The notes beneath the pieces are model-generated. The model had not been told where the DNA came from, did no database searches, and saw nothing but the letters and a program-made list of their open reading frames with translations. 64,000 nt of DNA, from contig NZ_DF968181.1 in assembly GCF_001192795.1 (NCBI RefSeq), positions 2,098,974 to 2,162,973 on the forward strand, in the 5' to 3' direction. The translations under genes and the position numbers were made by a program. Origin of the DNA: Flexilinea flocculi (lineage in GTDB: Bacteria > Chloroflexota > Anaerolineae > Anaerolineales > Anaerolineaceae). This document shows positions 14,743-62,564 of the stretch, in pieces. The stretch's first letter is position 1; each line of letters opens with the position of its first letter.

Positions 14743-14818
14743 CCAGTGATTCGAAATATAAATAACAATGATTTCTTAATTTATTCAAAAAGCAAATCCA
14801 TTTTTCGAATTGCTGCTG
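14743..14818. repeat. Palindromic repeat remnant lacking the central hairpin
   Basis: Left arm cagtgattcgaaatat and right arm ttttcgaattgctg lie 76 bp end to end, with no stem between them. It looks like an internal-deletion derivative of the 125-bp element and shows that the outer arms are separable from the hairpin. Confidence 0.6.
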
Positions 14819-16321: not shown

Positions 16322-18586
16322 ATGAAGAATCGAATATCCATCCTTGTTTTGTTGCTCATATTTCTTTTCGTTTCAAACGTCGCAGCTCAATCTGATACAT
16401 ATTATATTGGATCAACGATTGAGCGAAATGGAAGGTCTGTAACACTTAATTCAATTGATATTACCCCAAACTTGATTGAATTGAACTTTACAATCCAGAA
16501 TACGGGAATCGAAGATATTAAGATTGATTCTTTTTTGAGTTTTCGAGCTGAAAATAATGGCGGAGTTGCGCTTTCTAATGATTCGTTCAGTTGTAAGAAT
16601 CCTACGATTGACGGCAAACTGATCCCCGGTGACACAAAAACAGGATCAGTCTGTTTTAAAACCAGAGAACCTTCCCCATATAAGGTATTCTATCAACCGG
16701 GATGGGGAGCCTCTCCTGAAGATTTTGTTTGGAATGCAGTTCCAATGCCTGTCCCGCCAACTCCGATTCCAACCGCAACAGCCATCCCTGCTCCGACTGC
16801 AATACCACCAGCAGCTCCAACCGCTGAACCGACTTCAGTTCCACCGGAAATCCCGACAATTGATCCCCAAAAGCAACAATTACTGAATAATCTGGAAATA
16901 ACTTTTCCCCAGATTTTTATAAATGAAGCCAACATGGCGTTGCCTTTGGAAACTCGTGACTTAGGTGACGGGAAAACATACAAGACGGACTACGCCAATG
17001 AAATTTACACAGAAAGAATCAATGCACCCGCTCCGCTTTCAAAAAGTATCACCGCAGGTACCTATATTAACCCGGATCTGGGATCCTATGGAGATTTTGC
17101 ATTTCGATCAGACATAACCATATCCGAAGTACAGCCGGAAGGAAGCAACGGATATTGCTTTTTTGTCTACACGAATCATAACCTCGTGCAAGGAAATGAA
17201 TTTAATGAACTGGTTTTCAAACTCGGCTACGGCATTTATACCTACACATACACAGAAGCAGAAGGCGGAAAGAGCAATACCCTGATCGATCTGAGTGCTT
17301 ACAAAGAATCAGGAAAAAAATACCATCTGGATATAATCCGACAAAATGGTGTGGCGAATGCATTTATTGATGGCAATTTTATCGGCGAAGTCAACGATGG
17401 AATCGATGGAAATGTTTCCGGCTTCATTGGAATGACTTTAGGAACCGGAGGTCAGAATGCCGCATGCAGTTTTGACAATATCGAAATCCGAACTGCTGAA
17501 AAACAGGCATCCCTCAATGAACCGGAAGTCAAACCGACTGAATCAGAAGTGCCAACAGAGAAACCGGCCGATTTCAACCAAATTGTCTCATCCACTTGTC
17601 TCGAGCAAAATATCGACCGTCCCGGATTGGATTATCGCAGTGTCAGTCTGACCAAACCAGATCCCTCAGAATGTTCTGCCGCTTGTGTAGATGATGTCAG
17701 TTGTATTGCATTTACCTATGCTTCACCGGGGATATTGGGAGAGGAAGCAAAATGCTATCTGAAAAATGCAATGCCTGCCCCGAAACCGATGGATGGCGTT
17801 GTTTCGGGATTAAGGGCTAACTGCCTGAGTCAGGATGCGGTTACGCTGAAACAGCAGATGCTGCAAGATGCTGCAGTGAATTTTGGGAAAACAGCTATCA
17901 ATAAAGAGAATTGGGGATTAACGGATACACAAACCGACCTGGGAAATGGAAATACCTTTATAACAAAAAATGAAGAAGGTATGCACCATATCATCTTGAG
18001 CGCACAAGCTCCTTCTGCCAATCGCTGGGGAAACGCTGAACAGATCAGCAAAGATTTAGGAACCTTTACCGATTTTGCCCTTCATATAGATATAAAAGTC
18101 AATGAAGCTCAACCAGTAAAAAATGGCGGTTATTGTTGGATTGCCTATTCCAATAATGGATTAACTGGAACCAAGGATTTTAAAAATTTGTATTTTATTC
18201 CAGGACACAAAGCCTTCTCCTATGCTTTCTCAGAATCAAAAGGTCGGGAATCCCGAGATTTAATAGATTTGCAAAATTATCAGACAATCGGACAGAATTA
18301 CAGCGTCGATATCATTCGAAAAGATGGCATCGCGAATTTCTTCATCGATGGACAATTCATCAGTGAAATCAAAGATGAAATCAATGAAAATGTCTTTATG
18401 TTTCTTGGAACCGATCTCATTGAAGGCAGTCAATATGCAGATTGTGCCTTTGATAATTTCGAAATTCGCACATTCGGAGAACCAGAAATTGTACAGGAGG
18501 AAATAATTGAACCGACAGAAGAAACGAAAGAAGAGCCTGAAAATTCCGGTTCACTTTTTGACAAGATTATCAAAAAACCGAGGTAA
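16322..18586 (+). CDS. Exported protein with DUF4352-like domain, two lectin-like modules and a PAN/apple domain
   Basis: A 754-residue paralogue. In order: signal peptide (1-22); a DUF4352-like beta domain (about 25-140) with paired cysteines; a Pro/Thr/Ala linker (140-180); lectin-like module 1 (about 188-391, ending CSFDNIEIRT); a Cys-rich PAN/apple-like domain (about 425-501, with CSAACVDDVSCIAF); module 2 (about 510-718, ending CAFDNFEIRT); and a tail ending SGSLFDKIIKKPR. These domains suggest adhesion to polysaccharide or protein on the cell surface or in the floc matrix; that is inference. It lies between two repeat copies. Confidence 0.85.
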   Translation: MKNRISILVLLLIFLFVSNVAAQSDTYYIGSTIERNGRSVTLNSIDITPNLIELNFTIQNTGIEDIKIDSFLSFRAENNGGVALSNDSFSCKNPTIDGKLIPGDTKTGSVCFKTREPSPYKVFYQPGWGASPEDFVWNAVPMPVPPTPIPTATAIPAPTAIPPAAPTAEPTSVPPEIPTIDPQKQQLLNNLEITFPQIFINEANMALPLETRDLGDGKTYKTDYANEIYTERINAPAPLSKSITAGTYINPDLGSYGDFAFRSDITISEVQPEGSNGYCFFVYTNHNLVQGNEFNELVFKLGYGIYTYTYTEAEGGKSNTLIDLSAYKESGKKYHLDIIRQNGVANAFIDGNFIGEVNDGIDGNVSGFIGMTLGTGGQNAACSFDNIEIRTAEKQASLNEPEVKPTESEVPTEKPADFNQIVSSTCLEQNIDRPGLDYRSVSLTKPDPSECSAACVDDVSCIAFTYASPGILGEEAKCYLKNAMPAPKPMDGVVSGLRANCLSQDAVTLKQQMLQDAAVNFGKTAINKENWGLTDTQTDLGNGNTFITKNEEGMHHIILSAQAPSANRWGNAEQISKDLGTFTDFALHIDIKVNEAQPVKNGGYCWIAYSNNGLTGTKDFKNLYFIPGHKAFSYAFSESKGRESRDLIDLQNYQTIGQNYSVDIIRKDGIANFFIDGQFISEIKDEINENVFMFLGTDLIEGSQYADCAFDNFEIRTFGEPEIVQEEIIEPTEETKEEPENSGSLFDKIIKKPR

Positions 18587-18793: not shown

Positions 18794-21520
18794 ATGAAAA
18801 GCTGTCGAAGTATTCGCTTGTTGATCCTGATATTGCTGTTATTCCCCTCCGTTACCGCTGAATCGTTCTGGAGGACTTCGCAAATTGGGGATACGATCAC
18901 CAGGAGTGATCGGAGTACTACACTCCTTACAGCTGTAATCGATGACAGCCGCTTAGAGGTCAATTTTTCAATTCGAAATACGGGTGCTTCCGATATCCAG
19001 ATATCATCATTTCTCAATTTTCGGGCAGAAAACGCTGCCGGAAAAGATCTGATCAATGATTCTTTCAGCTGTAATCATCCAGCCATCAATGGAACAATTC
19101 AGCCTAATTCCGAGCTATCCGGATCTGTCTGTTTTAAAATTCTGGAACCTGCACCTTACAAAGTTTATTACCAGCCTGGTTTGGGACCCTCAACAGATGA
19201 TATGGTTTGGCAAATCGATAACATAGTCGAAGGAGCAGATGTTGAAACTGCATCCGATGAAAATGAAATTACGCTAATCAATCAGAATATATCATTGGTT
19301 GCAGATGAAACTGAAGAAGATAACAGCCAACTGAATGCTTCTGCTATAGATGAACCTGCTTCCGGTTCAATTTTTGATAGATTGATACAGCCAAAACCTA
19401 CTTCCCTCCCGTCTCAAATTGAAGACAGTCAAATCGAAAAATCCGAGACAGAACCGGCGATTTCAAATGTTTTTATCGAGGGTATTGATAAAGGATTATT
19501 GCTGTACCTTGTCCCGACAATATTCCCGAAAGTTGCAATTGACCAAAACAACTGGGGACAAAGCGATTTTCAACAGGATAAAGGCGAAGGGGTTATTTTT
19601 GAAGGGAAAGCGGAGAACGAGTACTATCACCTGGGAATAAGAACGCAATCACCACTGAAAGAAATCACTTATTCAATCCATGATATCAGACCAGATTTAA
19701 GCCCTTTGCATGATTTCTATCTTCATGTGGATATCACCAAAAATGAAATGCTGCCTGCGGATAATCGAGGCAGATGTTATTTATCCTATTCCAATTTAAA
19801 TCCCGACCGGACAAATTTGAATAATTATCAATGGGTCGTTATCGAACCAGGATATTATATTTATACAGGCAACAATGCGAACCCATCCTCTTCAAAATAT
19901 AAGGATTGGTTCAGTGTTCCATCCTATGGGCAAATCGGAACAGAAGATAGTATTGATATCATCCGAGTAAACGGTGTAGCCAATATTTACTTTAATCAGG
20001 TCTTCATCGGTGAAGTGGAAGATAACGCTATCGAAGATGTCACAGTAAAAATTGGCGCCATGTTGAGTGAAGGAGGGCAGTCTGTTGATTGTTTATTCAG
20101 AAATTTTCAGATTCGCACTCTTGACGATATACCAACGCCACCGGAAGATTTCAGTCCGATAAGCCTGATCTCCGAGCCTGGCAATCAAGCCGTTGAGAAT
20201 CAGCCAATACAAGTGGAACAAATTGAATCACTGTTTCCAACCATCATACTGGATAGAAATAATTCGGGACTGCAAAATTTGCAGACAAACCTTGGGGACG
20301 GGAAGAATTACACTACGCTCTTTAAAAATGGAATTTATCATACCATTTTCAGTGCATCAGTCCCTCTGACAGAAGGTTACAGCTATGGAGAGTATTTCCG
20401 GCAAAATACTGCCTCGATCAGTGACTTCGCTTTTCATGCAGACATAACCTTGTCCGAGGTTCTTCCGAATGGAAGCGCTGGTAATTGTGTACTTTCATAT
20501 TCCAATGGCAGGATGATCGGAGATGATCAATATCAATCCGTGAATTTTTATTTTGGTTATGAGTCATTTCTTTATTCGAACAAAAATGGGGGAACCTATC
20601 TGGACGGGATTGATCTGAGCGCTTTCGGCAATATCGGCAAAAATTATCGTGTGGATATAATCCGGCTGAATGGAACAGCGAATCTTTTTATTGATGGTAT
20701 CTACATAGGAAAATTCGATGATGAAATAGACGGTAATATCAACTGGTGGTTCGGTTCATACACTGGAAGCGGAGGTACCTATACCGATTGTGCATTCAAT
20801 AATTTTGAGATTCGAACCACACAAAATGTTCAGACCATCCAGAATCCGACGCAAAATGCTGCGCCGCAGATCAATCCGGAAAAGCAGAATCTGCTGGACC
20901 AGGTTCAAACGCTTTTCCCGAATATTGCTGTTAATCCAAACAATTGGGGGATTTCAGAAAACGATGAAACTGTCAGCGATGGAGTAACTTACCATTCTCG
21001 ATTGGAGAATAATACATACCACACCATACTGGATGCACCGGGAGGTACAATCGAAGATGAAAGTTATGGACATTATTTAAGCACGCGATTAGGATCTTTT
21101 CGCAATTTTGCACTTCACACAGATGTTACTATCACAACAGTACGCCCTGCCGATGGCTATGGCGACTGTTATATTTCGTATACCGACCAGGAAATTGCCG
21201 GAGAAAAACGATATAAATGGTTTGATGTTGAACCGGGATACTCAATCAACACATACACTTATCCGGAAGACGAGTCATATGAATTCTTCGACCTCAGCAA
21301 TTATGGCGAAATCGGCAAAACGTATAGCATTGACATCATTCGAATCGATGGAATCGCCAACGTTTTTATTGATGGAGTCTTCATTGGCGAAGTGGATGAC
21401 GGGATTACCAACAATGTCACCATGTTTCTGGGTACTTACATTGGGGAGAATACGCAATATGTCGATTGCGCTTTCAGCAACTATGAAATCCGTGTCAATA
21501 AATCTGCCGGATCCAATTAA
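18794..21520 (+). CDS. Exported protein with DUF4352-like domain and three lectin-like modules
   Basis: A 908-residue paralogue, the largest. Signal peptide (about 1-22), DUF4352-like domain (about 28-140) with FSCNHPAING and SGSVCFKILEPAPYK closely matching the previous protein, an acidic linker containing SGSIFDRLIQ (about 190-199), then three lectin-like modules (about 229-447, 476-675 and 695-903). Each module ends with a Cys-containing NFEIRT-like strand. A Shine-Dalgarno (aaggagg) precedes the ATG. Copy number rises 1, 2, 3 along the cluster, which suggests growth by tandem duplication. A terminator follows. Confidence 0.84.
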   Translation: MKSCRSIRLLILILLLFPSVTAESFWRTSQIGDTITRSDRSTTLLTAVIDDSRLEVNFSIRNTGASDIQISSFLNFRAENAAGKDLINDSFSCNHPAINGTIQPNSELSGSVCFKILEPAPYKVYYQPGLGPSTDDMVWQIDNIVEGADVETASDENEITLINQNISLVADETEEDNSQLNASAIDEPASGSIFDRLIQPKPTSLPSQIEDSQIEKSETEPAISNVFIEGIDKGLLLYLVPTIFPKVAIDQNNWGQSDFQQDKGEGVIFEGKAENEYYHLGIRTQSPLKEITYSIHDIRPDLSPLHDFYLHVDITKNEMLPADNRGRCYLSYSNLNPDRTNLNNYQWVVIEPGYYIYTGNNANPSSSKYKDWFSVPSYGQIGTEDSIDIIRVNGVANIYFNQVFIGEVEDNAIEDVTVKIGAMLSEGGQSVDCLFRNFQIRTLDDIPTPPEDFSPISLISEPGNQAVENQPIQVEQIESLFPTIILDRNNSGLQNLQTNLGDGKNYTTLFKNGIYHTIFSASVPLTEGYSYGEYFRQNTASISDFAFHADITLSEVLPNGSAGNCVLSYSNGRMIGDDQYQSVNFYFGYESFLYSNKNGGTYLDGIDLSAFGNIGKNYRVDIIRLNGTANLFIDGIYIGKFDDEIDGNINWWFGSYTGSGGTYTDCAFNNFEIRTTQNVQTIQNPTQNAAPQINPEKQNLLDQVQTLFPNIAVNPNNWGISENDETVSDGVTYHSRLENNTYHTILDAPGGTIEDESYGHYLSTRLGSFRNFALHTDVTITTVRPADGYGDCYISYTDQEIAGEKRYKWFDVEPGYSINTYTYPEDESYEFFDLSNYGEIGKTYSIDIIRIDGIANVFIDGVFIGEVDDGITNNVTMFLGTYIGENTQYVDCAFSNYEIRVNKSAGSN

Positions 21521-21605: not shown

Positions 21606-21656
21606 ACGCTACGGTTGAACAAATTAACTGAATTTCATATTTCGAATTACGTTTCA

Positions 21657-21684
21657 TTGACAAATAGAATAATTGTTCTATAAT
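21657..21684 (+). promoter_or_regulatory. Strong promoter with LexA-box-like operator, start of polymerase cassette
   Basis: TTGACA (21657-21662) and TATAAT (21679-21684) are both perfect and 16 bases apart. The spacer contains GAATAATTGTTC (21667-21678), one base from the Gram-positive LexA consensus GAAC-N4-GTTC and part of a wider TAGAA-N6-TTCTA palindrome. A repressor there would block RNA polymerase. The ATG follows six bases after the -10 box, so the mRNA would have little or no leader. No Shine-Dalgarno is present. Confidence 0.7.
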
Positions 21685-21690
21685 TGAAAT

Positions 21691-22299
21691 ATGGAAACAA
21701 ATATTGAACGTTATTCACTTGATAAAACAGCAGTTGCTATGCAGCAGCCGTTATCCTGCGGTTTCTTCGTTCTGTATGGCCCGCAGGCGGCCACGCCGCA
21801 ATTACTGCAGCTCTGCGCAAAGCTGGCATTGAAAAATGCGGTCAGAATTCTGGACTGCGGCAATCGATCGGATATGCATCTTGTCGCACGTGAATTACGA
21901 GAAATCACACGCGATCCTGCAGCCGCCATGCTGAATATTCGTTTGTCGCGTGCCTTTACCTGTTATCAGACTGAAGCGCTATTGTCAGAAAGCCGGTCTC
22001 TTGAGAATATGCCCATCCTGATACTGGATCTATTAACCACGTTTTTCGATGAAAGTGTTCAGAAAAAGGAAGCGGAGCGGTTGTTTGGAAATGTGTTGGA
22101 TCATATCCAAAAAATAAGCCGTAAAAATCCTGTATTCGTCGGCGTTAAACCCATTCCTGAACTCGCTGCAGATCGAGTCGATCTGATGTATCAGTTAAAA
22201 GAAGCGGCAGATCAGTTTCAGCAGCTTCAGAACACAGCGCAGAACACTGAAAATGAAAAATATCAACAACTGCCATTATTCGACAGCAATCCGAAATAG
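21691..22299 (+). CDS. RecA-like ATPase-fold protein lacking Walker A, with C-terminal clamp-binding-like motif
   Basis: A 202-residue protein not recognised by name. The layout matches a RecA/RadA core: beta strand FFVLYGPQAATP where the P-loop should be (no GKT/S), a segment MLNIRLSRAFTCYQTEALL like the L-region of RadA, and a Walker-B-like strand ILILDLLTTFFDE (about 109-121). It therefore probably does not hydrolyse ATP by the usual route. The C-terminus QQLPLFDSNPK contains QLPLF, a close match to the bacterial beta-clamp-binding motif QL[SD]LF. It resembles ImuA in concept. The last four codons and the stop lie inside a palindromic repeat. Confidence 0.75.
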   Translation: METNIERYSLDKTAVAMQQPLSCGFFVLYGPQAATPQLLQLCAKLALKNAVRILDCGNRSDMHLVARELREITRDPAAAMLNIRLSRAFTCYQTEALLSESRSLENMPILILDLLTTFFDESVQKKEAERLFGNVLDHIQKISRKNPVFVGVKPIPELAADRVDLMYQLKEAADQFQQLQNTAQNTENEKYQQLPLFDSNPK

Positions 22300-22408
22300 A
22301 GGGAGGATTCTTAGTTATTGTGAAGTCTTTGCGCAAAGCGCAAAAACATCACAACGACAAGTTTTTCCTTCGTTATCAGAATAGCAAGTCAATATTTCGA
22401 ATTGCTGA
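22284..22408. repeat. Intergenic palindromic repeat, copy F (125 bp), overlapping a gene end
   Basis: Left arm cagcaatccgaaatagaggg begins at 22284 within the RecA-like gene and supplies its final residues and TAG stop. Stem 22314-22334 pairs with 22338-22358 around AAA; right arm atatttcgaattgctg ends near 22408. The element separates the first and second genes of the cassette. Confidence 0.8.
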
Positions 22409-22437
22409 TAATTTGATAGAAGCAGGGGAGGCTACGT

Positions 22438-22779
22438 ATGGGAAGGACAATTCGTTCCGCCACACAAACCTGGATTGAAGAGGAAAAAGCGCTCTCGCGT
22501 TTTACGCGCGCACTGCGAAAAGACGATCAGCAGTTACTGCAGGAATTAACCAATCTCTCGCGTCTTCATATTGCGGAGGCGTCTTACGCCAGCAATTTGT
22601 ATCCGATGGATATTTATCTGATCAGCATGCTGCTTGAGACGTACAAAAAGCTGAGACGCACGGAAAACAAAGTGGCTCAGCTCTGCAAATTGCAGGGGAT
22701 TGAGCCTCCGCCGGAATCTGAAATCCCCGACCTGCCTAGCTTGACTGAACTGATTGAGCATTTGGACGAGGAGCCATAA
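22438..22779 (+). CDS. Small helical protein of the polymerase cassette
   Basis: A 113-residue protein of unknown function. It is predicted to be mostly alpha-helical and charged (TWIEEEKALSRFTRALRKDDQQLLQEL, then LLETYKKLRRTENKVAQLCK), with an acidic tail ending LIEHLDEEP. No catalytic motif, metal site or membrane segment is visible. A strong GGGGAGG-type ribosome-binding site precedes the ATG. It sits between the RecA-like gene and the polymerase gene on the same strand, so a structural or adaptor role in the same complex is the natural guess. Short helical subunits are often missed by homology searches. Confidence 0.72.
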   Translation: MGRTIRSATQTWIEEEKALSRFTRALRKDDQQLLQELTNLSRLHIAEASYASNLYPMDIYLISMLLETYKKLRRTENKVAQLCKLQGIEPPPESEIPDLPSLTELIEHLDEEP

Positions 22780-22808
22780 ATTTTTTTGCAAATATTCTCG
22801 TAATATGT

Positions 22809-22850
22809 CAGTAATTCGAAATACGCAAAAAATTCTTGTTGTTCAACGTT
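22809..22850. repeat. Palindromic repeat fragment, copy G (left arm only)
   Basis: cagtaattcgaaatacg followed by ttcttgttgttcaac resembles the left arm and the start of the stem; the rest is missing. It lies 35 bp before the polymerase start. Confidence 0.5.
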
Positions 22851-22884
22851 AATCCATCTATGAACAAAGAAAACGCCGTGTCCT

Positions 22885-25098
22885 ATGAAAACATTTCTGA
22901 AAGGATGGATTTTAGATATTTATGAAGATGAAACAGACGGCGTACGAATCTGGTTCATCACCGAAGAAAATCAGCGAATTTGCCTGAAACAGTACCTGCC
23001 TGTCCGCTTTTTTGCGGCGGGTCCTCGGGAACGTCTTCATCAATACTGTCTGGCAATCCAAGGGACGCCGGGACTGCTTCATCTAAGCCGTGAGAATAAA
23101 CGCGATGTTTTTAAACCCGAACCGGTCTGTGTTCTGGAAATTGAAATGGACAATCCAGTTCGCCAGCGTCTCTGCTTTCAGCGTTTAAAAAAAGATTTTC
23201 CTGATCTCATTTATTACAATGCCGACCTTGCTGTCCACATCCACCATGCTGCCCGTTATCATACCTTCCCTCTGGCATTTTGTTCCGTTACATATGACTC
23301 GGAAAACCAGGAAATTCTAAACCTGGAAGTGTTAAACAGCCGCTGGGATGTGGCGCCACTGCATCCGGTACTTCGTATATTGGAAATGGAACCGTCCTGT
23401 GATCCAAATAAGAAAAATCCGGAATCACTAAGGCTCAGTTACAATCATCATACACAGCAAATCAGAATGAGTGATCCAGCAAATGTGCTGAATCATATCA
23501 ACCAGTTGATTGAGAAAATCGATCCAGATCTGATTCAGACAAAATGGGGTGACGATTGGCTTTTTCCGGAACTGCTGGAAATGGAAAGCACCGCCGGAAT
23601 TCCGCTGAAAATGAATCGGGATGAAGAACGAAAGCTATTCTGGAAAAAAGAAATCACCTATTACTCTTATGGCCAGATTGTATTTCGCGGACGAGAGGCA
23701 CATCTGTTCGGACGCTGTCATATTGATACAAAAAATGCGGTAATGTGGAGTGATTATCACCTGGACGGCGCACTGGAATCCGCCCGTGTCACCACGCTGC
23801 CCATAGAACAGGCTGCACGCGTTTCTCCCGGGTCCGGCATTTCCGCCATGCAAATGATCACTGCACTGGAACAAGATGTCCTGGTTCCGGAACAGAAGCA
23901 GCAGATTGAAGCTTCGAAATCCGCATTGGATCTAATCCAATTTGATCGTGGCGGTCTGATATACCAACCGCGTACCGGGCTTCACTGCAATGTGGCAGAA
24001 ATTGATTTTACCTCAATGTATCCGGCTGTTATCATCAATGGGAATATATCACCAGAAGTGCCGCTTCCGGATGGTTTAAAACCTGCCAGCAGTGTTCTCG
24101 GAATAGTCCCGCTGACACTCAAACCGCTTTATGAAAAACGGGTTCTTATTAAAGAAAAACTGCTGCATTTTCCAGATAAAAGCGCCCCGCTTGCAAAAAG
24201 CTATACGGCAAGAGCTTCTGCACTGAAATGGCTGCTGGTTGTTTGCTTCGGTTTTTTGGGGTATAAAAATGCACGATTCGGGCGGATCGAAGCCCATGAA
24301 GCGGTTACGCGCGGAGGAAGGGAAGCGCTGCTGATTGCCAAAGAGACTTCCGAGGAAATGGACTGTGAAGTGCTGCATATGTTTGTCGACGCACTCTGGA
24401 TTCAAAAATCCGGATGCAAAAAAGTGTCCGACTTTCAACCGGTACTGGATGAAATTTCCCGTCGAACCGGAATGATCATTTCCATGGACGGCATTTACCG
24501 ATGGATTGCTTTTTTGCCATCCCGTGCCAACGATGATCAGCCAGTTCCCAATCGTTATTTTGGCGTTTTCGAAGATGGCAGTCTGAAAATTCGCGGTATC
24601 GAGGCAAGACGCAGGGATGTTCCAGTCTGGATCATTGAAACGCAGCTCGAAATGCTGAATTGTCTGGCCAAAGCTGCGGATGCACGAAAACTGCCGGATT
24701 ATTTGCCGAAAGCTTTTCGAATCTTTCATAATGCGCTGGAAGATATCAATGCGGACAGAATACCTCCGGAAAAACTGATCGTTACAAACAGAATCAGCCG
24801 GAAATTGTGTGAGTATAAAGCGCCGACTGCAGCTGTACGGGCTGCACGGCAGTTATTAGAGGCAACTGGTAAGAATACTGCTCCCGGACAAAAAATACGC
24901 TACCTGTATACCGTCGGAACACCGGATGTATTTGCATGGGAAATACCCGAACCGATTCAGCGTGAGCAAATCGATAAATCCAAATATCGGGAACTTTTAG
25001 CCCGGGCTGCCGGCACGATTCTGTATCCATTTGGAATTAATGCAAAACAAATTTCCGACTATGCGCATGGCGGATTGCAACTGAACTTTTTCGACTAA
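22885..25098 (+). CDS. Divergent family-B DNA polymerase with C-terminal clamp-binding-like motif
   Basis: A 737-residue PolB-type protein. Polymerase motif A is DFTSMYP (about 374-380, catalytic Asp kept); motif B is represented by K448 to CFGFLGY; motif C is FVDALW (about 500-505), where the first Asp of DTD is lost but the second, metal-binding Asp (D502) is kept. RGIEARRRD (about 570) matches the conserved thumb-proximal box. The exonuclease region (about 150-235) is degenerate: the DxE of Exo I is replaced, so proofreading is probably absent. The protein ends LQLNFFD, like the clamp-binding end of UmuC (QLNLF). Related bacterial and archaeal groups include proteins thought to be inactivated, so activity here is uncertain. 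Confidence 0.85.
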   Translation: MKTFLKGWILDIYEDETDGVRIWFITEENQRICLKQYLPVRFFAAGPRERLHQYCLAIQGTPGLLHLSRENKRDVFKPEPVCVLEIEMDNPVRQRLCFQRLKKDFPDLIYYNADLAVHIHHAARYHTFPLAFCSVTYDSENQEILNLEVLNSRWDVAPLHPVLRILEMEPSCDPNKKNPESLRLSYNHHTQQIRMSDPANVLNHINQLIEKIDPDLIQTKWGDDWLFPELLEMESTAGIPLKMNRDEERKLFWKKEITYYSYGQIVFRGREAHLFGRCHIDTKNAVMWSDYHLDGALESARVTTLPIEQAARVSPGSGISAMQMITALEQDVLVPEQKQQIEASKSALDLIQFDRGGLIYQPRTGLHCNVAEIDFTSMYPAVIINGNISPEVPLPDGLKPASSVLGIVPLTLKPLYEKRVLIKEKLLHFPDKSAPLAKSYTARASALKWLLVVCFGFLGYKNARFGRIEAHEAVTRGGREALLIAKETSEEMDCEVLHMFVDALWIQKSGCKKVSDFQPVLDEISRRTGMIISMDGIYRWIAFLPSRANDDQPVPNRYFGVFEDGSLKIRGIEARRRDVPVWIIETQLEMLNCLAKAADARKLPDYLPKAFRIFHNALEDINADRIPPEKLIVTNRISRKLCEYKAPTAAVRAARQLLEATGKNTAPGQKIRYLYTVGTPDVFAWEIPEPIQREQIDKSKYRELLARAAGTILYPFGINAKQISDYAHGGLQLNFFD

Positions 25099-54476: not shown

Positions 54477-54709
54477 AGCAATTTGAAATATCGATTGACT
54501 TTTCAAATTGCTGGATGATGATTACCTGTTATCAAATTGAAGTTATAAATGACTGATTGAATACAATATTTCGAATGAGGGGGAAATTTTTTATAGATCT
54601 TATGGTTTTGCGCTTTGGGCAAAACCATAAGATCTATAATTTTTCTTTCCTGTAATCTGAATTATCGCTCATAATTCGAAAAGCTTGTCCTTATTTCGAA
54701 TTTCAGTTG
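54477..54709. repeat. Intergenic palindromic repeat, copy L (233 bp, compound)
   Basis: Begins with a self-contained palindrome CAGCAATTTGAAA ... TTTTCAAATTGCTG (54477-54513). A second arm acaatatttcgaatg follows, then a perfect 21-bp stem (54591-54611 with 54619-54639) whose sequence (TATAGATCTTATGGTTTTGC) is unlike the others, and a double right arm to about 54709. It looks like a copy inserted into, or fused with, another. Confidence 0.75.
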
Positions 54710-58498: not shown

Positions 58499-58622
58499 CA
58501 GCAATTCGCAATATGAGTAGGATTCTATGTTGGTGTGATGGTTTTGTGCTTCACGTAAAACCATCACACCAATAAGTTTTCTCTCTCGATGCGAATAGCA
58601 AGTCGATATTTTGAATCGCAGC
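58499..58622. repeat. Intergenic palindromic repeat, copy M (124 bp)
   Basis: Left arm cagcaattcgcaatatg (58499), stem 58530-58549 with 58553-58572 (TTGGTGTGATGGTTTTG core) and right arm ...gatattttgaatcgcagcc to about 58622. Lies between divergent genes. Confidence 0.8.
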
Positions 58623-62437: not shown

Positions 62438-62564
62438 CAGTAATTCGAAATATGGAGTGACTTTTCGAATAATGAAAGGAAATTGATTGTTCTTATGGTT
62501 TACGTGAAGCGTTAAACCATAAGAACAACAATGAATTTTTTTCATAGTTCGAAGTACTGATAAT
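62438..62564. repeat. Intergenic palindromic repeat, copy N (inverted orientation)
   Basis: Double arm on the left (cagtaattcgaaatatgg...cttttcgaata), stem 62487-62502 with 62512-62527 (TTGTTCTTATGGTTTA core) and a short right arm gttcgaagtactgat. The double arm is on the left here and on the right in copies B, E and F, so this copy is inverted. Confidence 0.78.

Follow-up and report, generated by a model that had tools for sequence, protein, structure and literature searches.

Which kind of polymerase system is encoded by three neighbouring genes of Flexilinea flocculi, and under which control does it stand? The genes lie in a stretch of 64,000 nucleotides, here called the window (contig NZ_DF968181.1, positions 2,098,974 to 2,162,973 of the forward strand). 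A first-pass annotation, made from the letters of the window, had placed three same-strand genes at 21657-25098. This observation is confirmed, as the open reading frame (ORF) list of the window contains frames at 21691-22299, 22438-22779 and 22885-25098, all on the plus strand and encoding 202, 113 and 737 amino acids. Judged by its sequence features, the trio is an iRadA-PPB2-PolB2 operon of the "PolB2 mutasome". The system itself was already published in 2025 (PMC11791011), and our addition is a conserved SOS-type switch upstream of it. We hold it to be highly probable that the operon provides an SOS-induced extender polymerase, which would lack proofreading and be tethered to the beta clamp via iRadA.

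Identification of the PolB2 mutasome

The three genes and the evidence used for their assignment are as follows.

21691-22299, plus strand: iRadA, a RadA-like protein without Walker A (ORF, profile match to RadA, aligned orthologues, archaeal counterparts)
22438-22779, plus strand: PPB2, a small partner protein with N-terminal MGRT (ORF, alignments)
22885-25098, plus strand: PolB2, a family-B polymerase with degenerate exonuclease (ORF, PF00136, NF004416, alignments)
23281-23289, plus strand: lost Exo I of PolB2, CSV (residues 133-135) in place of DxE (alignment)
24382-24390, plus strand: motif C of PolB2, FVD (residues 500-502), first Asp of DxD replaced and D502 kept (alignments to Pyrococcus abyssi PolB and relatives)

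As described by Timinskas et al. 2025 (PMC11791011), the PolB2 mutasome comprises iRadA, PPB2 with an MGRT start and a PolB2 with inactivated exonuclease, in which the first Asp of DxD is mostly missing. The complex is given there as a heteropentamer, PolB2-iRadA-PPB2(3), the family is derived from archaea, and bacterial genes always follow the order iRadA-PPB2-PolB2, the sole order seen. In a 2026 survey, bacterial G2/PolB2 is listed as a known group (PMC12926913). The window has the published bacterial order on one strand, and this order together with the MGRT start of PPB2 places the locus in the PolB2 group. This is the group of apparently inactivated archaeal-type B polymerases with a few bacterial members that the first-pass annotation had mentioned without assigning the locus to it.

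The PPB2 of the window starts MGRTIRSATQTW. MGRT is found in all 26 aligned PPB2 sequences, rows that were picked for MGRT starts, and in two archaeal PPB2; five of 83 trio loci have no MGRT in the PPB2 frame. A PPB2 profile retrieved nothing convincing from the PDB sequence set (best E 0.13), and neither the iRadA nor the PPB2 gene has a Pfam or NCBIfam match over the cut-off. The first gene had been read as a RecA-like protein without Walker A. The missing Walker A stands, with no GxxxxGK[ST] in the sequence, whereas by profile the nearest relative is archaeal RadA and not bacterial RecA. The window iRadA alone has no match at E 1 in Pfam or NCBIfam. When a profile of 38 orthologues was run against the PDB set, the best match (E 9.2e-6) was to archaeal RadA over profile positions 50-159, and Rad51 and Dmc1 came next; the remaining weak matches look like chance, and bacterial RecA is not among the matches. 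The RadA-like core without ATPase motif expected of a member is present. Two iRadA rows (L008 and L012) in alignments A2 and A4 end before their stops.

The third protein is a divergent PolB, as had been proposed: PF00136 matches over its cut-off (E 2.4e-22). NF004416 matches with E 8.2e-114 but below its curated cut-off, and a ten-sequence PolB2 profile aligns to Pyrococcus abyssi PolB across the polymerase part. The suspected loss of the Exo I residues is seen in the alignments (CSV), and Leu226 occupies the position of the catalytic Asp of Exo II. The DxE of Exo I and this Asp are the residues which we take to be canonical at the aligned sites, and the 3'-5' exonuclease is predicted to be inactivated as in other members. 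Motif C has lost the first Asp of DxD, as in most PolB2 members. Motif A (DFTSMYP) is retained, and the PolB2 alignments show no variation at Asp374, Lys448 and Asp502. Asp281 is invariant as well, with Thr as next residue here; it is the putative counterpart of 253-DK-254 of S. islandicus, the D(K/R) loop motif that contacts PPB2 (PMC11791011). In one alignment, the window PolB2 is 42-48% identical to relatives L005, L101 and L107 and 28-29% identical to three haloarchaeal PolB2. The nearest named relative, among the best 80 of at least 540 confirmed stretches, belongs to a Flexilinea sp. metagenome-assembled genome (L051, 93%).

Distribution of the three genes

Of the 199 genomes of the class that were searched, 13 gave a PolB2 match at E 1e-10, the genome of the window among them. 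For comparison we assembled 93 loci, consisting of the window, 12 loci from other genomes and 80 named loci, mostly titled Anaerolineaceae, Anaerolineae or Chloroflexi; the latter are the best 80 of the at least 540 stretches and hence the nearest relatives. In 83 of the 93 loci the complete trio shares a strand, with adjacency not constant. The ten exceptions comprise five loci that contig ends interrupt (L011, L078, L082, L110, L123), one with a truncated PolB2 (L015) and four that are considered further below.

Archaeal counterparts were viewed at four haloarchaeal loci, a selection out of 111 matching plasmid records. Plasmid loci of Halalkalicoccus jeotgali B3 and Haladaptatus sp. YSMS36 have the order Cdc6, iRadA-like gene, small MGRT protein and PolB2. 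For pNRC200 and Haladaptatus salinisoli, no such genes are listed just upstream of PolB2 in a gene table that is incomplete.

A LexA-type operator in the operon promoter

The first-pass annotation had begun at 21657, where a TTGACA hexamer starts. Two features lie here.

21657-21684, plus strand: sigma70-type operon promoter, TTGACA at 21657-21662, 16 bp spacer, TATAAT at 21679-21684 (sequence)
21667-21678, plus strand: LexA-type operator GAATAATTGTTC before iRadA, inside the -35/-10 spacer (sequence, comparison with the lexA box)

The genome encodes a LexA and a RecA. At the lexA promoter, GAACAATTGTTC lies between TTGACT and TATAGT, and at the recA promoter GAACAAATGTAC lies between TTGACG and TATAAT; the box of the window is one base away from GAACAATTGTTC. 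With TATAGT as its -10, the lexA promoter escaped the automatic layout test, and its box was read by eye. With a LexA gene in the genome and LexA-type boxes at the lexA, recA and iRadA promoters, the sequence features of a LexA regulon are present. The layout was not found in the stretches of the Y-family gene or the two dnaN genes of this genome.

Among the survey loci, 79 have an iRadA frame with at least 200 bases before it. The exact box GAACN4GTTC occurs in 23 of these upstream regions, as compared to 1.8% of random stretches of the same loci; when one mismatch is allowed, the number rises to 46 (random stretches, 11%). Upstream of all ORFs longer than 180 amino acids in the survey loci, 26 exact boxes were counted in 726 regions, including those of the trio itself. 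The full arrangement of TTGAC, box and TATAAT occurs 47 times in the survey loci (2,180,396 bases, both strands counted), and 46 of these occurrences lie within 800 bp upstream of iRadA, 36 of them within 340 bp. An iRadA frame is present in 84 loci, and 46 of these, window included, have the layout; the sole layout elsewhere is located downstream of PolB2 in L108. A narrower count of about 300 bp gave 34 of 79 iRadA upstream regions and 13 cases elsewhere, ten of which sit 452-651 bp upstream of iRadA. The operator at the promoter supports an SOS reading, and the extended layout count strengthens it.

The main text of PMC11791011 contains neither "SOS box" nor "promoter". A LexA-type layout at PolB2 operons and a LuxR-family leader gene, described below, were both not found in print, in a search of mainly open-access papers without their supplements. 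For PolB2 together with PPB2 or iRadA, PMC11791011 was the only paper to come up. No literature was found on LexA in Anaerolineae, and papers on LexA with SOS box in Chloroflexi treated only other subjects, judged by title or start of the abstract.

Clamp-like motifs in iRadA and PolB2

Both iRadA and PolB2 had been said to end in pentapeptides resembling beta-clamp-binding motifs. Both pentapeptides are present, near the termini rather than at them: DSNPK follows in iRadA and D in PolB2.

22267-22281, plus strand: QLPLF, beta-clamp-binding-like motif of iRadA, residues 193-197 (conserved pentapeptide, 46 of 63 loci)
25078-25092, plus strand: QLNFF near the PolB2 end, residues 732-736, clamp-like and unconserved as pentapeptide (motif count)

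Conservation was measured with the regular expression Q[LMIVFPAGST]x[LMIF][FLWY] in the last 25 residues of iRadA and the last 70 of PolB2. The sample started from 81 of the 93 loci with closed C-termini in both frames and was reduced to 63 by removing PolB2 that were at least 90% identical; this filter took out L051, and L059 remained with a false PolB2 end, its frame being broken by an N. The result divides the earlier claim. In iRadA the pentapeptide occurs in 46 of 63 loci against 3.3 expected from shuffles, and in PolB2 in five of 63 against 6.3, which is not above chance; for PolB2, the conservation among orthologues on which the claim depended is lacking. Four loci have it in both proteins. 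The strict form Q[LMI]x[LMIF][FLWY] is found, among the 63 loci, in PolB2 of the window only, with 2.0 expected by shuffling. Family membership, the LexA-type operator between -35 and -10 and the conserved clamp-like motif at the iRadA C-terminus can all be read from sequence.

The four-residue core Q[LMIF]x[LMIF] is enriched in PolB2 tails (29 of 63 against 10.0 expected), which often read GG[LIV]Q[LF]x[LF] or similar. Because of this enrichment, QLNFF probably arose as an elaboration, specific to this lineage, of a hydrophobic PolB2 tail. At its position, the PolB2 frame of L051 has QTEFSY and no pentapeptide. A clamp motif in iRadA or PolB2 is a feature of bacterial members, and the window has both, with the one in iRadA conserved. 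By the paper's own profile, the two motifs are almost never found together (PMC11791011); in our case both are present as judged by the regular expression.

The genome contains two full-length DnaN-like ORFs with open frames of 415 and 396 amino acids (L001, G000:C2:221224; L002, G000:C3:1060253). At least two matches to the DnaN C-terminal domain over the cut-off were seen in four of 13 PolB2-bearing genomes and in one of 18 PolB2-lacking genomes, the latter a chosen part of the 186 without PolB2 match; these numbers are too small to conclude on a second clamp dedicated to PolB2. A more elaborate picture, which we regard as rather unlikely, would be that the mutasome has become, in these Chloroflexota, a LexA-controlled mutagenic polymerase, often led by the LuxR-family gene as fourth gene, which in a Flexilinea-like lineage grips the clamp at two points (QLPLF and QLNFF), perhaps on two protomers of one clamp or on two DnaN. 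If true, such two-point wiring is not described for other PolB2 complexes in the literature covered.

Upstream neighbours and a dispersed repeat

In 34 of the 84 loci, a frame of the LuxR family (GerE) ends just upstream of iRadA.

L089, 2912-3365: LuxR-family gene before iRadA
L103, 2606-3392: LuxR-family gene before iRadA
L109, 5602-6058: LuxR-family gene before iRadA
L128, 5711-6221: LuxR-family gene before iRadA
30 other loci: LuxR-family gene before iRadA

A count based on a single frame gives 34 as well, and GerE (PF00196) scored over its cut-off in all five frames scanned. In nine of the ten loci with the layout 452-651 bp away, the LuxR-family gene lies between box and iRadA, and it is possible that it represents a fourth gene of the PolB2 operon. 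There is no such gene before iRadA in the window or in L051-L088, and matches to one LuxR leader in the genome of the window are weak (best E 2.6e-6) and located elsewhere. The words LuxR, GerE and HTH are absent from the main text of PMC11791011, and no literature was found on PolB2 with LuxR in an operon. Three loci have a tmRNA gene ahead of the iRadA frame, at a distance of no more than a few hundred bases (L053, 5308-5711; L054, 5277-5676; L058, 4951-5354). In the window itself, the ORF list shows two large adjacent ORFs upstream (16322-18586 and 18794-21520) with a common repeated domain, seen in stretches like ISDFAFHADITLSEV and FRNFALHTDVTITTV.

The gap between iRadA and PPB2 is 138 bp in the window and 222 bp in L051, compared with a median gap of 10 bp among the loci measured. 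Most of it is filled by a repeat.

22286-22405, no strand: inverted-repeat element of about 120 bp, a member of a dispersed family (repeat search)
10364; 14746-14813; 21637-21650; 22286-22405; 22811-22824; 29572; 54478-54704; 58501-58619; 62440-62557: repeat family in the window

The left end of the element overlaps the last iRadA codons, after QLPLF. The repeat ends, ATATTTCGAATTRC, often form inverted pairs about 105 bp apart, and 580 near-matches were counted on both strands of the genome (some sites twice), against 30 for a reversed-pattern control. Exact ends occur among the survey loci in the window (three) and L051 (one) only. The element looks like a miniature inverted-repeat transposable element or a repetitive extragenic palindromic element. 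The palindromic ATATTTCGAATTRC and its complement near all three genes had been considered as an operator; since it is a genome-wide dispersed repeat, it was rejected as regulatory site of the operon. In Longilinea arvoryzae (L101, 5006-6729), 1.7 kb separate iRadA and PPB2 in an interspersed PolB2 operon.

Proposed function and alternative explanations

The trio very likely constitutes, as far as its sequence tells, a damage-induced and mutation-prone repair polymerase with two partners. LexA would repress the operon until damage activates RecA, which would remove LexA. Following the model of PMC11791011, PolB2 would then join iRadA and three copies of PPB2, with the MGRT arm of the trimer directed toward the active site. 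The complex would be tethered to the beta clamp by iRadA and here possibly by PolB2 too, and the polymerase, lacking proofreading, may extend primer ends that are mispaired or carry lesions, with mutations as the price.

Several points weigh against this proposal. The window box is one mismatch away from GAACN4GTTC. The layout is missing in 38 of 84 loci. Of these, 13 have less than 800 bp of upstream sequence and 25 have at least that much, the near relatives L053, L054, L056, L057 and L058 being among the 25. Within one mismatch of GAACAATTGTTC, the genome holds 27 sites against three for a control pattern, and 20 of the 27 lie inside ORFs of at least 150 amino acids (that of lexA included, owing to an overlong frame); a genome-wide SOS gene list from these matches was dropped, the sites being mostly inside ORFs. 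A LexA-like frame was found in none of the 93 loci, whereas lexA is reported as enriched near bacterial polB2 (PMC11791011). In L100, L105 and L106, neither iRadA nor PPB2 was detected over some 7 kb upstream of PolB2, and in L128 PPB2 was not found. With gaps of 138 bp (iRadA-PPB2) and 105 bp (PPB2-PolB2), a single transcript is putative. The PolB2 pentapeptide stays at chance level, and no experiment on any bacterial PolB2 was found in the literature searched.

The operon could be constitutive or obey another regulator and serve routine repair instead of the SOS response. The loci without layout, the tmRNA gene shortly before iRadA in L053, L054 and L058 and the LuxR-family leader, as a candidate for such a regulator, would fit with this. 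However, the lexA and recA genes of this genome have boxes placed alike, the layout lies upstream of iRadA in 46 loci and elsewhere only once, and archaeal PolB2 operons are damage-induced (PMC11791011, PMC7390963), so that we consider non-SOS control distinctly unlikely. Likewise, chance could account for the C-terminal pentapeptides, with the clamp contacted by neither protein. The PolB2 count and the 17 of 63 iRadA frames without motif speak for it; the iRadA motif far exceeds its expectation, and in the published models motifs of this type sit on the clamp in the manner known from solved structures (PMC11791011), which makes chance a very unlikely explanation. The replaced first Asp of DxD (FVD) might further indicate that PolB2 is catalytically dead here and acts as a structural platform, like ImuB for DnaE2. 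Against this, Dpo2 of S. islandicus has IID at the same site (PMC11791011) and is reported as robustly active (PMC8764526), and the invariant Asp374, Lys448 and Asp502 are kept. A dead PolB2 appears extremely unlikely to us. The SOS-controlled mutasome, a damage-inducible family-B cassette as first proposed, is supported by the evidence and the literature, with the LexA-type operator favouring the SOS part.

Comparison with known systems

The first-pass annotation had drawn a parallel to ImuA-ImuB-DnaE2, which works in a similar manner with a RecA-family partner, clamp contact and an error-prone polymerase. DnaE2 belongs to family C and ImuB is a dead Y-family protein. The polymerase here is of family B, and the DnaE2 and ImuB that define that system are absent from the trio. 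The mutasome-like part of the parallel holds. In print, the system used for comparison is E. coli Pol V (UmuD'2C-RecA): a RecA-family partner, a small oligomeric subunit, SOS control and clamp contact are common to both, and Pol V differs by its Y-family polymerase and active RecA (PMC11791011). E. coli Pol II resembles PolB2 as a damage-induced, clamp-binding family-B polymerase, but is a single subunit with active exonuclease (PMC11791011).

With the published PolB2 mutasome the locus shares gene order, MGRT PPB2, the RadA-like partner without ATPase motif, inactivated exonuclease, altered DxD and a bacterial clamp motif. Its own features are a clamp-like pentapeptide near both C-termini, the LexA-type operator and long gaps with a repeat element. 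The Dpo2 operon of S. islandicus also combines a PolB2 without proofreading with a RadA-like and a small partner, whereas it is archaeal, under Orc1/Cdc6-linked control (PMC11791011), and uses PCNA as clamp. Dpo2 is damage-inducible, responsible for targeted mutagenesis, robustly active without exonuclease and an efficient extender of mismatched ends (PMC7390963, PMC8764526).

As far as the literature searched shows, bacterial PolB2 complexes are known from computation only. Carriers with strain names could serve for testing, namely Leptolinea sp. HRD-7 (L107), which has the promoter layout, and Longilinea arvoryzae KOME-1 (L101) and Levilinea saccharolytica KIBI-1 (L115), which do not have it. 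An operator placed as at lexA and recA, and found in 46 of 84 loci, would make it possible to test directly if an archaeal-type polymerase has become part of the bacterial SOS response.

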